From Cyanobacteria bacterium M_surface_7_m2_040 (GTDB lineage Bacteria > Cyanobacteriota > Cyanobacteriia > PCC-6307 > Cyanobiaceae), in NCBI GenBank assembly GCA_016882555.1, contig VGPQ01000003.1, positions 1 through 16,758 on the forward strand: a DNA stretch of 16,758 bases. The letters are read 5' to 3'. Made by a program: the position numbers and the translations under genes. Positions within the stretch are counted from its first letter, which is position 1, and the number at the start of each line of letters is the position of its first letter. Under the pieces are notes generated by a model. That model was not told where the DNA came from, made no database searches, and saw only the letters and a program-made list of their open reading frames with translations. This document shows positions 1-6,931 of this stretch, piece by piece.

Positions 1-170
1 CCGTGTTCCGGCGCCAGAACCAGCCCGAGGTGGCCGTGCCCCTGCTGGTCGAGGTGGTGAAGGTGATGACCCCGGCCAATGAGAATGGCCGCAAGGCCTA
101 CCAGCAGCTGGTGGAACTGGGCTTTGCCGCCACCCCCTACAACGCCCCCGGCCCCAGCAGCGGCAGCTGA
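1..170 (+). CDS. C-terminal end of an unidentified protein (5' truncated by window edge)
   Basis: An open frame entering from the left edge (first full codon at base 3) reads about 55 residues to a TGA at 168-170. It lies 48-72 bases upstream of bolA on the same strand, with the codon use of its neighbours. The visible part has a helical, amphipathic look (segments AVPLLVEVVKVM and KAYQQLVELGF), somewhat like the last helix pair of a helical-repeat protein, then a Pro/Ser/Gly-rich tail. I do not recognise the family from this fragment and assign no function. The co-directional position suggests it could share a transcript with bolA and grx4. Confidence 0.6.
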   Translation, partial: VFRRQNQPEVAVPLLVEVVKVMTPANENGRKAYQQLVELGFAATPYNAPGPSSGS

Positions 171-242
171 AGGCAACGCCACCGGCGAAGCCGTCAGCTC
201 CCGGCCGTCGCTGCCACAATGACCCGCAATATCCCTCTCTGC

Positions 243-476
243 ATGGTTCAGCCAGATCAGGTGAGGCAGGCGATCCAGACCGCCCTGCCCGACGCCAGTG
301 TTGAAGTCGAAGACCTCACCGGAGGCGGCGATCACCTGCAGGTCAAGGTCGTGTCATCCGCCTTTGCCGGCCAGAGCCGGGTGCAGCAGCACCAGATGGT
401 GTACCGGGCCCTGAAGCAGGAGCTGGCTAGTGAGGCGATCCACGCCCTGGCCCTGCAGACCGCCACGCCGGCCTGA
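243..476 (+). CDS. bolA: BolA family protein
   Basis: BolA-family protein of about 77 residues. BolA proteins act with CGFS monothiol glutaredoxins, sharing a [2Fe-2S] cluster between them, and take part in iron-sulfur trafficking and redox signalling in the cytosol. Seen in the sequence: the segment [19 protein letters not shown], then [13 protein letters not shown] and the C-terminal [10 protein letters not shown], which is the usual BolA core with the conserved histidine of the HALA motif. I chose the ATG at 243 (MVQPDQV) because cyanobacterial homologues begin at that point; an in-frame ATG at 219 would add eight residues without a better ribosome site. The gene lies 45 bases before grx4 on the same strand, which supports a BolA-glutaredoxin pair. 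Family call is firm, start less so. Confidence 0.9.
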
Positions 477-521: not shown

Positions 522-845
522 ATGGACACCCAGATCCAGCAACGCATCGAAGGACTGATCGCCAGCAGCCCCATCTTCGTGTTCATGAAGGGCAACAAGC
601 TGATGCCCCAATGCGGCTTTTCCAACAACGTGGTGCAGATCCTGCATTCCCTCGGGGTGCCGTTCGAGACCTTCGACGTGCTCTCCGACATGGAAATCCG
701 CCAGGGCATCAAAGACTTTTCCGACTGGCCGACCATTCCCCAGGTTTATCTGAAGGGGGAATTCCTGGGCGGCAGCGACATCCTGATCGAGATGTACAAC
801 TCGGGTGAGCTGCGCGAAAAGCTGGAGATCGCCCTGGCCAGCTGA
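522..845 (+). CDS. grxD: Grx4-type monothiol glutaredoxin (CGFS)
   Basis: Monothiol glutaredoxin of 107 residues, full length for the single-domain family. It binds a glutathione-ligated [2Fe-2S] cluster, usually with a second Grx or with BolA, and hands it to apo-proteins. Seen: the active-site CGFS at residues 31-34, preceded by the conserved lysine K23 (FMKG), the cis-proline region WPTIPQ at 69-74, and GGSDI at 83-87, which contacts glutathione. These residues are all intact. It follows bolA with a 45-base gap and probably shares its transcript. In cyanobacteria this protein is often called Grx3 or GrxC; the naming varies, the family does not. Confidence 0.95.
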   Translation: MDTQIQQRIEGLIASSPIFVFMKGNKLMPQCGFSNNVVQILHSLGVPFETFDVLSDMEIRQGIKDFSDWPTIPQVYLKGEFLGGSDILIEMYNSGELREKLEIALAS

Positions 846-3081: not shown

Positions 3082-5388
3082 ATGAATCAGCTGCGCGAAC
3101 GTCACCAGTTGGTGGAGATCTGGAACGCGGTCAGCGCTGATCCGCCCCCAACCGCCAGAGGCCTGGCCGATCGGATCGCGGCTGCGCTGCAAGCCGCAGG
3201 CACCGCGCTTGCCGCCTCGGAAATCGAACCCCTGCTGCACAGCCTGCAGGGCGATGGGCTGCCTTCCGCCGGGCAGGGAAGGTTGCTGCTCACGGTGCTG
3301 GCCGGCGATCAGCGGCTGCGCTGTGAAGAGGCCTATGGCGTGCTGAGTGCGGCCTGCCCGCAGGGTGTGAGCGTGGCGGTGCTGCAACAGCTGCTGACGG
3401 TCTTCGCACTGAAACCCAGCGAGGCCGAGGCCATCGCCATCGCCATCGACCGCGATGGTGCCGGGCAGATCAGCCGCGACGACTTTCTGGCCTTTTTGCC
3501 GGCAGGGTTCCAGCGGCACCCGCGCAGCTACCACGCCTCCCACCTGGGCCACAAACCTGCGACCACGCCCGCTTCAGCCAGCGCCCAAGCCTCTGCAGCA
3601 ACGAGCGCGACAGCGCCCACCCCGCCGGCCAACGGGCAGGACGCAACCGGGACGTCGCCGCTGCAGCTGCAGATCGGCCTGTTCCGCCTGGTGCAGGGTG
3701 CGGCCTACCGCAGTTTCCGGGCCAACTATTCGGCCAATTCGGAGACCCACCTGCGGGCCTACGACCTGCCCTACACGATCGAACACTTCGCGGCCTTCGT
3801 GAATGCCGCCATCGACCTCTACGCCGCGCTCGGGGTTGTGGAGCCGGAGGCCCGTCAGCCGCTCGAGGATCTGCTGGGCTCGGTCAATGGTGCTCTCGAG
3901 GCGCTGCATCAACGCATGCAGCACTGGCACGAGCTCCAACCGAACGAGGCCATGCGCGAGGCCGAAACCCAGCTCGAGGAGGAGCTCGCCGAACTCGACC
4001 ATCAGCACCAGCTGTTTGCGGGCCTGGTCGAGCTGCTGCTGGTCACTGGCCTGCAGGGTCACGATCCACGCCAACTGAGCAGCGACGATCTGCGCCACCA
4101 CGAGCTCAATCGCCTGCGCCATCGCGACGACCACCGCGAACTCAGCGATCACCGTCACGGCGACGCCACCAGCGTTGGCACCCAGACCCAACGCCCCTTC
4201 CTCGACACCTGGCAGCGGGTGATCGTCGATGAGAGCGACACCCGCTATGCGGGGGCGATCATGCCGACCCGCTACTGGTATGAGGAGTTCATGCCCCGGC
4301 TGCTGCGGGCCTGCTCGGTGCGCACGGCTGCCGATCTGGCTGCACTGGATGCCGAAACCGAGGCCGATCTCGATGCCTGGTTCCAACAGGTGCGCGATGC
4401 CGGCGAGTTCGATCGCTATGCCCCAGCGGTGCGCGCCCACTTTCCGCAGTGTTCGCCGTCGGTCAAACAGGAGCTCAAGCAGGCCTGGCGGCTCACACGC
4501 CATTACCTCAACGGGGTGCAGAAACGGCGCGAACGCGAAGAATTCGGCCGCGGCGATGGCTACCTCAGCGAGTATGTGGCCTTCATCGACGTCTACCTGG
4601 GGCGCAGCGACATCGCCGACTCGGAGATGCGTCTGAGCTTCCCCTACTACCTGGGCCCGGCCACCTGGCGCTTCCTGCACACCAGCGCTGAGATCATCGC
4701 TGCCAAGCCCGACGCTGAACAGGCCGTGCTCGTGGACCTGTTCAAACGCTTCTTCGCCACGCTGGCGACGATGTACCCCTGCCCCTATTGCCGCTACCAC
4801 CTCAATCGCTACGTGGTGCGCAACAAGGAGGTGAACCTCTACCCGATCGAATACCTGCTGCTGGGACCCCGCGACGAGGGGGACCCCCACATCGAGGTGA
4901 CGCTCGACCAGAAGTTGTCGGTGATCAACAACGGGGCCAGCCTGCGCCTGTTTCTGTGGAAGCTGCACAACACGGTGTCGGCTTCGATCGCCCGCAGCGA
5001 ACCCTGGTTCCACCGCGATGAGCAGGCCCACTACACCACCCGCTACTGGCCGAGCCTGGATTCCGAGCTGGCCCGGGCCGAAGCCCTGGCCTACCAGGCG
5101 ATCGAAACCGAGCGGGTGAGTCGCATCTACGGGGTGTTGAAACAGGCCGCCCATCTGGGTGTGCTGCGCGATGAACTGCAGCTGGCCCTGAGCCGGCCCG
5201 GCTCCGCGGAACTCAGGCAGCTCTGGCAACGGGCCGAGACCACCGTGGTCAAGGCCGAAGAGGCCGTGCTGCGCTCCGGCTTTCTGCAGCAGAACTACCA
5301 CTACAACCCCGAGTTGGAGCTGGCCGATCCCCACTTCAGCCCTGAGGAGGAGGCCCTGGCCCGCAGCGGCTATTACGTGGAGGCCTAG
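3082..5388 (+). CDS. EF-hand and Erv/ALR-type sulfhydryl oxidase domain protein
   Basis: A 768-residue protein. Residues 123-134 (DRDGAGQISRDD) fit an EF-hand loop with ligands at positions 1, 3 and 12, but alanine at position 5. A Pro/Ala/Ser/Thr linker (about 157-192) follows, then a helical region (195-325), a His/Asp/Arg-rich stretch (327-360) and another helical region. At about 521-645 is an Erv/ALR-like domain: LGPATWRFLHT (W529, H533), MYPCPYC with the redox pair C567/C570, and LFLWKLHNTVSASI with the His-Asn (629/630) that contacts FAD in the family. Erv enzymes oxidise thiols to disulfides and pass electrons to oxygen. The family's second, structural cysteine pair is absent; other cysteines are C81, C92, C411 and C457. 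There is no signal peptide. A GGAGGGG tract lies 12-18 bases before the ATG. It stands alone, converging with crtH. Confidence 0.85.
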   Translation: MNQLRERHQLVEIWNAVSADPPPTARGLADRIAAALQAAGTALAASEIEPLLHSLQGDGLPSAGQGRLLLTVLAGDQRLRCEEAYGVLSAACPQGVSVAVLQQLLTVFALKPSEAEAIAIAIDRDGAGQISRDDFLAFLPAGFQRHPRSYHASHLGHKPATTPASASAQASAATSATAPTPPANGQDATGTSPLQLQIGLFRLVQGAAYRSFRANYSANSETHLRAYDLPYTIEHFAAFVNAAIDLYAALGVVEPEARQPLEDLLGSVNGALEALHQRMQHWHELQPNEAMREAETQLEEELAELDHQHQLFAGLVELLLVTGLQGHDPRQLSSDDLRHHELNRLRHRDDHRELSDHRHGDATSVGTQTQRPFLDTWQRVIVDESDTRYAGAIMPTRYWYEEFMPRLLRACSVRTAADLAALDAETEADLDAWFQQVRDAGEFDRYAPAVRAHFPQCSPSVKQELKQAWRLTRHYLNGVQKRREREEFGRGDGYLSEYVAFIDVYLGRSDIADSEMRLSFPYYLGPATWRFLHTSAEIIAAKPDAEQAVLVDLFKRFFATLATMYPCPYCRYHLNRYVVRNKEVNLYPIEYLLLGPRDEGDPHIEVTLDQKLSVINNGASLRLFLWKLHNTVSASIARSEPWFHRDEQAHYTTRYWPSLDSELARAEALAYQAIETERVSRIYGVLKQAAHLGVLRDELQLALSRPGSAELRQLWQRAETTVVKAEEAVLRSGFLQQNYHYNPELELADPHFSPEEEALARSGYYVEA

Positions 5389-5395
5389 TCGGTCC

Positions 5396-6931
5396 CTAGG
5401 CCGGCAGTGCCCAGGGGTTGATCCCCAGATCCGCACCGATGCGATGGGCGCAGGCGAAGCCGCTGAAGGCCACGGCGTTGAGCCCCTGGCCGGGGAAACA
5501 GGAATCGCCGACGCAGTAAAGGTCCTTCAGACCCGTGCGGTTGAAGGGCATCGGCAACAGCCCAGGCAGCCGCAGGGCTGGGATCGGCCCGTAGCTGCCG
5601 CCCATGCGCCCCAGGAAGCGGCGATGGCTGCGGGGAGTGCCCACCTCACGGTGACGGATCGCCCCCGCCAACCCCGGCAGGATCGCCTCCAGGCGAGCGA
5701 TCAGGCGGTCGGCATCGGCCTGTTTCTTGGCCTTGTACTCGGCCGGTGACAGGTGCTGCCAGTGCTCGATCGCACTGGGGGCAAAGGTGTGCAGGATGTG
5801 ATGGCCCGCCGGCGCCAGGCTGGGATCCAGCAGCGTGGGCATCGACACAAAGATCACCCCCTGCTCGGCCTCCATCTGCTGCCAGTCCTCCAGGATCAGG
5901 TGATGGCAGTGGAAGCCATCGGGCACCACGGCGGCATCGATGCCCAGGTGCAAAGACAGGAACGAGGGCGAGGGCTTGTAGCGGCGGCGCCAGGTGGTTT
6001 CGGCTTGGGGCGTGTGGGCGGTATCGACGAGCCCGCCGAAGGTGTCCCAGCGGGTGGCGTTGCTAACCACCCGGCGGGCGCGGAGTTGTTCGCCATTGGC
6101 CAGCTCCACGCCCACGGCCCGGGCCGCCCCCCCCTCGCCCTCGAGCAGCACCTTGGTGACCCGGGCCTTGTAGCGGATGGCGCCGCCATGGCGCTCCAGG
6201 CCCGCCACCAGCTTCTCGGCGATCACGCCAACACCGCCTTTGGGGTAGTTGATGCCGCCGGCATGGCGATCGGAGAACACCATCCCCGCATTGATCATCG
6301 GGGTGAGATCAGCGGGCATCACCGACCAGCAGAAGCACTCCATGTCGATGAAGCGCAGCAACTGCTCATCGCGGATGTGGGCCCGCGCCACGTCGCCCAC
6401 GTTCACCGGCAGCCAGCGGGCCAGGCCCAGGCAGGCCAGGGGCGCTCTGAAAAACACCTTGGCCAGGTAGGCGGGGTCCTCGAGCGAGAGCAGCGGCATC
6501 GCATCGAGGCAGCGAAACACCTGCCAGCAGGTGTCATAGAAGGCGCGGATGCCCTTGGCCTCATGGGGGAACAGGGCCGTGAGCCGCGCCACGAAGCTGT
6601 CGTAGTTGCGATCCACCGCCACGGTGAGGCCGCCGGGCAGGTGGTACTCGAGCTGTGCCGGGTCGGGCACGGTCTCGCAGTGCTCGCCCACATCGGCCAG
6701 GGCGCGGGTCAGCAGGTTGGTGTGGCCGCTCTCGCCGAACCCGAAGATCATCGAAGCGCCCACATCAAAGGTGTAGCCCGCCCGCTTGAAGCTGCCGCCC
6801 GATCCCCCCGGGATCAGGTAGCGCTCGAGCACCAGGGTGCGCGCGCCCTTGGACGCCAGCTGGCTGGCGGTCACCAGGCCGCCGATGCCGCTGCCGATCA
6901 CGATCACGTCCCAGGGAGCTTCTGCCACCAC
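5396..6931 (-). CDS. crtH: Carotenoid cis-trans isomerase (prolycopene isomerase) CrtH
   Basis: CrtISO-type enzyme of 511 residues, the usual length. It converts poly-cis prolycopene to all-trans lycopene, using reduced FAD, in the desaturase pathway that feeds the photosynthetic carotenoids. Seen: the FAD dinucleotide motif GSGIGG at residues 13-18 with E37 (LVLERYLIPGG) at the ribose position, then RAGYTFDVGASMIFGFGE, the mid-protein INYPKGGVG, and the C-terminal FAD segment LYCVGDSCFPGQGLNAVAFSG. The pattern after the first glycine motif separates CrtH from the CrtI/CrtP desaturases. The gene starts 39 bases after the stop of the channel-like gene and is the last of the psbY-trmFO run on this strand. 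No defects visible. Confidence 0.93.
   Translation of the reverse strand: MVAEAPWDVIVIGSGIGGLVTASQLASKGARTLVLERYLIPGGSGGSFKRAGYTFDVGASMIFGFGESGHTNLLTRALADVGEHCETVPDPAQLEYHLPGGLTVAVDRNYDSFVARLTALFPHEAKGIRAFYDTCWQVFRCLDAMPLLSLEDPAYLAKVFFRAPLACLGLARWLPVNVGDVARAHIRDEQLLRFIDMECFCWSVMPADLTPMINAGMVFSDRHAGGINYPKGGVGVIAEKLVAGLERHGGAIRYKARVTKVLLEGEGGAARAVGVELANGEQLRARRVVSNATRWDTFGGLVDTAHTPQAETTWRRRYKPSPSFLSLHLGIDAAVVPDGFHCHHLILEDWQQMEAEQGVIFVSMPTLLDPSLAPAGHHILHTFAPSAIEHWQHLSPAEYKAKKQADADRLIARLEAILPGLAGAIRHREVGTPRSHRRFLGRMGGSYGPIPALRLPGLLPMPFNRTGLKDLYCVGDSCFPGQGLNAVAFSGFACAHRIGADLGINPWALPA

Follow-up and report, generated by a model that had tools for sequence, protein, structure and literature searches.

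The open reading frame at positions 3082..5388 of the forward strand of the window (the whole stretch of DNA that was analysed, 16,758 nucleotides) encodes a 768-residue protein which, judged from its sequence, belongs to a bacterial family that combines a calmodulin-like domain and an Erv/ALR-type domain with a conserved, unclassified middle domain. The Erv/ALR domain had been proposed earlier as part of a large protein of unknown architecture; the open frame and the place of the Erv part (residues 516-660) bear out the large protein with its embedded domain, but two parts had been overlooked, a calmodulin-like N-terminus and a conserved domain in the middle, and it is the family defined by them that goes beyond the Erv call. 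As an Erv member the family is ordinary, while its layout is unusual: calmodulin is usually considered a eukaryotic protein, and Erv oxidases are usually associated with mitochondria, the secretory pathway or viruses. The features are listed below; the stretch first proposed (4639-5016) corresponds to residues 520-645.

3082..5388, forward strand: whole gene, 768 aa, calmodulin-like domain, unclassified helical domain, Erv/ALR domain and C-terminal helices (open frame, 515 homologues, 91-sequence alignment)
3082..3519, forward strand: calmodulin-like domain, residues 1-146, with four helix-loop-helix units whose calcium loops are eroded here (AlphaFold2, family profile, the Nostoc relative L040)
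3448..3483, forward strand: last EF loop, residues 123-134, DRDGAGQISRDD, with Ala at ligand position 5 (sequence, family comparison)
3646..4626, forward strand: conserved helical domain without recognised relatives, residues 189-515 (no convincing Pfam or PDB match, conservation, co-occurrence)
4627..5061, forward strand: Erv/ALR domain, residues 516-660 (PF04777, model match to Erv structures)
4666..4680, forward strand: W529-x-x-x-H533, expected FAD contact (91/91 sequences, aligned with WxxxH of 2hj3 and others)
4780..4791, forward strand: C567-P-Y-C570, expected active-site disulfide (91/91 sequences, aligned with CxxC of 2hj3, 1jr8 and 4e0h)
4837..4926, forward strand: stretch between the CxxC and HN helices, residues 586-615, insertion limits approximate (longer than in 2hj3, C570-H629 spacing)
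4966..4971, forward strand: H629-N630, expected FAD contact (91/91 sequences)
5062..5385, forward strand: C-terminal helices, residues 661-768, lower conservation (helices in both models, 4 of 108 columns at least 98% conserved)

Homologues and alignment

Among 7997 candidates scored, 515 homologues were found at E ≤ 0.001; within the best 120 of these, most were near full length and some carried the NCBI name 'ERV1/ALR-related protein'. One relative (P0105), 84% identical over 58% of the query, bears the source name 'histidine kinase, partial', which is probably a misnomer. In total, 98 loci were read (the window and L001-L097) and 95 were matched in the ORF set, the unmatched ones being a VKOR locus (L002) and two loci (L089, L090) that encode relatives and were missed by ORF picking. 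After L001 (the window again), L082, L059 and L014 had been dropped as duplicates or as shorter than 700 aa, the alignment held 91 sequences of at least 700 aa, window included; at least seven pairs among them are one genome met twice (zero-length pairs in the tree), so the number of independent sequences is smaller.

The Erv/ALR domain

The Pfam profile Evr1_Alr (PF04777), the search by which the original prediction was to be checked, matched the whole protein significantly (E = 7e-10, 39.5 bits, gathering cut-off 27.6) and the isolated domain likewise (E = 1.2e-11, 43-45 bits). All 58 family sequences scanned, window included, gave a match at E ≤ 1, and one relative scanned in full (L063) scored 27.1 bits, just below the cut-off. 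When the C-terminal third was searched against solved structures with phmmer, Arabidopsis Erv1 (2hj3) came first at E = 9e-5, followed by yeast Erv2, yeast Erv1 and ALR, and a profile built from 58 family sequences again placed 2hj3 on top (E = 6.6e-6) with a similar list after it; the HN helix aligned with WLCHVHNTVNRSLGK of 2hj3 as a second stretch, which is non-significant alone.

The motifs WRFLHT (W529, H533), MYPCPYC (C567, C570) and LWKLHNTV (H629, N630) lie at the claimed positions, and the proposed conservation of the CxxC and His-Asn residues among homologues holds throughout: all six named residues are identical in 91/91 aligned sequences (the window and 90 relatives), as are K627, R638 and E640. 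The same order of W-x3-H, CPxC and HN was also present in L089, L090 and L082, all outside the alignment, and no single frame with this order was found in L059, a 3-kb contig. We take W529/H533 and H629/N630 to be FAD-contact positions and HNxxN to be a FAD-contact motif, of which the HN is invariant here and the last Asn is replaced by Ser (HNxxS) in 90 of the 91 sequences. Conserved columns (≥ 98%) made up 43 of 115 in the Erv part (516-585 and 616-660). The protein has six cysteines, none beyond C570, and apart from the CxxC pair none is kept throughout the alignment (C457 in 74/91); a conserved shuttle or structural disulfide is therefore absent, in line with the lack of the family's extra structural disulfide that had been pointed out.

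Structure prediction, also proposed as a check, gave a divided answer when the models were compared. With VIA-align, the domain model matched Erv/ALR chains above all else compared (100 residues at 3.4 Å to Arabidopsis Erv1), helical models being able to reach middling Z by chance, while with Foldseek neither the full nor the domain model had a PDB match at E ≤ 0.001. Taken together, Pfam, the PDB profile, conservation and the VIA-align ranking concur that this is, at the level of sequence and prediction, an Erv domain, with the CxxC placed as in the active site, a profile score over the curated cut-off and a predicted fold shared with the family. Erv enzymes are defined in passages of PMC3509050 by a common fold, cofactor binding and active-site cysteines; of these, the fold is present here by prediction and the cysteines by sequence.

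The calmodulin-like N-terminus

AlphaFold2 placed helices at residues 7-18, 25-38, 45-55, 63-74, 77-91, 98-108, 112-122 and 132-137, and the structures ranked highest for the full model, with the same caveat on helical models, were calmodulins with a target peptide, spanning about 75..326, the modelled helix 307-325 lying as if it occupied the place of that peptide. Sequence comparison agreed, as a profile from 53 family sequences matched centrin/calmodulin (best E 3.5e-10), the Nostoc relative L040 matched calmodulin at E about 1e-38, and PF00036 marked four EF-hand stretches each in L040 and in the Nannocystis relative L079.

No canonical calcium loop of the PS00018 type was found in the window protein. 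On a tree built from an alignment that contains the loop columns themselves, the 57 members of the Nostocales-side clade all have at least one canonical loop, and 27/34 members of the window's clade have none; among the picocyanobacterial sequences counted, window included, the loops are lost in 18/22. The calcium loops look intact in filamentous cyanobacteria and worn out in the window protein, for which, to judge from these residues, calcium control cannot hold.

The middle domain

Pfam and PDB searches with the middle domain returned no convincing relative. At least 98% conservation was seen in 56 of 297 columns (189-346 and 377-515), less densely than in the Erv part, and many of these columns are Arg, Glu, Trp or Tyr. 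Among 386 cyanobacterial genomes sampled, PF04777 was patchy, occurring in 16, and the middle domain was present in 15, all of them among these 16, and was never found without PF04777. The sixteenth genome (G167) carries a broken copy without the middle domain (L014, 949-2304), Nostoc-like, in which the calmodulin-like part is directly joined to the Erv part and the frame stops early while the similarity runs on; by its sequence, this copy is decayed.

Proposed function and alternatives

Hydropathy scanning of the 768-aa protein revealed no clear transmembrane or signal segment (peak 1.54 against our own threshold of 1.6, a crude scan whose threshold was exceeded in 2/91 sequences), and cytosolic action is therefore expected, unlike that of VKOR. 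We consider it fairly likely that the protein is a thiol oxidase with an Erv fold and FAD as cofactor, soluble and probably located in the cytosol, whose ancestral form was under calcium control. Substrate thiols would be taken up by the C567-C570 pair, from which electrons would travel via FAD to oxygen, with a disulfide and hydrogen peroxide as products, as extrapolated from characterised Erv enzymes. Because there is no conserved shuttle cysteine pair, the substrate would either react with the CxxC without an intermediary, like the substrates of compact viral Erv enzymes, or be presented to it by the middle domain. Ancestrally, the N-terminal calmodulin-like lobe would bind calcium and clasp a middle-domain helix, and this calcium-driven clasp could gate access or activity, whereas in the window protein and most picocyanobacterial relatives, since their calcium loops have decayed, this lobe has more likely become a static element of the structure.

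More speculatively, and with our doubts outweighing our confidence, the family could be a calmodulin-gated cytosolic generator of disulfides or peroxide in bacteria, whose oxygen-consuming Erv oxidase is switched on by the calcium signal itself. On this reading, each end of the protein resembles a eukaryotic module, the gene would have been passed among cyanobacterial, alphaproteobacterial and myxobacterial lineages, and picocyanobacteria would have retained the enzyme after losing its calcium switch. If true, this would tie calcium to the formation of disulfides or peroxide in a cell that itself produces oxygen. With calcium loops intact in some lineages and decayed in others, the family offers a ready natural comparison for possible calcium control of the oxidase, and its conserved middle domain invites structural work.

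The alternative that survives best, though we regard it as unlikely, is a redox or oxygen sensor that supplies no disulfides and in which the flavin-CxxC site switches the middle domain as output. The strong conservation of the middle domain (mean majority fraction 0.69-0.72, compared with 0.78-0.86 for the Erv part), its confinement, within the 386 cyanobacterial genomes, to those with PF04777, the absent shuttle disulfide and the standalone gene with no recognised folding partner adjacent would all suit a sensor, but no output domain was recognised by Pfam or in the PDB, and no catalytic residue varies, which resembles a turnover enzyme. Less probable still is an enzyme for hydrogen peroxide formation or oxygen consumption that acts on a small thiol, e.g., glutathione, with the disulfide as by-product: Erv enzymes other than this family prefer dithiols, which speaks against it, but the expected cytosolic place would fit, as would a single CxxC without a shuttle pair, an arrangement described for many viral Erv enzymes, compact ones among them, in passages of PMC3509050. 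We think it very improbable that the Erv fold no longer catalyses and now acts as a scaffold of a structural or FAD-binding kind, a reading to which the HNxxS change and the longer stretch after the CxxC could point, given that a CxxC invariant in 91/91 sequences from three phyla is hardly to be expected at a dead site. Chance resemblance through short motifs in a helical protein, for which the non-significant Foldseek scores might be quoted, can practically be dismissed, as the profile is significant, the motifs are invariant and the four lines of evidence for the Erv domain agree.

Comparison with known systems

The role predicted for the thiol oxidase, disulfide making, is shared with the cyanobacterial VKOR-thioredoxin oxidase, VKOR being a membrane enzyme unrelated to Erv. 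The same genome also carries a VKOR-type gene (PF07884, E = 1.5e-26), so that an Erv domain together with VKOR in one cyanobacterium, as had been proposed, is a fact of sequence. QSOX, which consists of thioredoxin and Erv domains, is likewise a large protein with a helical region ahead of a C-terminal Erv domain, but the present family lacks a thioredoxin domain (none by Pfam in the window protein at E ≤ 10 or in five relatives at E ≤ 0.001) and a second conserved CxxC, and has the calmodulin-like N-terminus in its place; the Pfam matches of the window protein and of the five relatives at these limits were EF-hand-type families and Evr1_Alr, and the sole invariant CxxC of the family is that of the Erv part. 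NCBIfam gave no match to the 768-aa protein.

Erv1/ALR and Erv2 share with the family the predicted fold and the CxxC, W-x3-H and HN motifs in order. The family differs from them in its CxxC-HN distance (C570 to H629, 57 residues in 81/91 sequences against 28 in 2hj3, i.e., 29 longer by our own alignment count), in HNxxS, in having neither a structural nor a conserved shuttle disulfide, in the position of the domain within 768 aa and in its expected cytosolic place. Calmodulin has the four EF-hands in common, and the Nostoc and Nannocystis relatives cited are 50-56% identical to it across some 138 residues, but here it forms a domain of a larger protein whose loops are lost in the window protein and most picocyanobacterial sequences. 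Mimivirus R596 also joins an Erv module to a domain of no known kind; according to PMC3509050 that domain is C-terminal and R596 has a CX9C pair, whereas the extra domains here are N-terminal and without a conserved second pair.

The calmodulin-Erv architecture was not found described in searches of open PubMed Central text, and the passages of PMC3123361 (on calcium-binding loops) that deal with cyanobacteria, Nostoc and calmodulin make no mention of this protein. An Erv domain in cyanobacteria is itself less new than originally implied, given the NCBI names cited above and a passage of PMC10598087 (2023) which lists PF04777 for Nostocales, Oscillatoriophycidea, Rhizobiales, Rhodobacterales, Pirellula, Verrucomicrobiaceae and Euryarchaeota; elsewhere, the same paper speaks of absent bacterial homologs.

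Distribution and gene neighbourhood

By locus (80 of 96 relatives kept), the family was found in Cyanobium, Synechococcus, Prochlorococcus and many Nostocales and Oscillatoriales, and beyond cyanobacteria in Rhodobacterales, Rhizobiaceae, other alphaproteobacteria and the myxobacteria Nannocystis and Enhygromyxa. A quick tree put sequences from alphaproteobacteria next to the picocyanobacterial ones, in their midst and also basal to the Nostocales side, with Nannocystis nested in the cyanobacteria; several joins of this kind carry a star, but they unite long branches, where a join can be false. Gene transfer between lineages is the simplest reading of these sequences.

Based on rough gene calls, the family gene has no recognised constant neighbour, its neighbours differing between lineages, and none points to a substrate or is a recognised folding partner. 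In the window, a BolA-like gene (219..476, below the curated cut-off) and a Grx4 monothiol glutaredoxin gene (522..845, above the cut-off), a common iron-sulfur pair, lie 2.2 kb upstream of the Erv gene. The carotenoid isomerase gene (5396-6931, reverse strand) is convergent with the Erv gene and ends 8 bases on; it is also the neighbour in three other Cyanobium-type loci, two of them seemingly one genome. Antisense to the Erv gene, a 620-aa open frame (3574-5436, reverse strand) looks like a by-product of high G+C rather than a gene. The only plasmid copy found, in Gemmobacter aquarius (L102, 4479-6737), is annotated as ERV1/ALR-related protein and stands beside glycogen and sugar nucleotide genes. 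In a genome of the Nannocystis phylum, a 283-aa protein (L100, 1480-2331, reverse strand) scored over the PF04777 cut-off; on inspection of its sequence, the start resembles a sulfotransferase and the end an Erv domain that lacks the CxxC.
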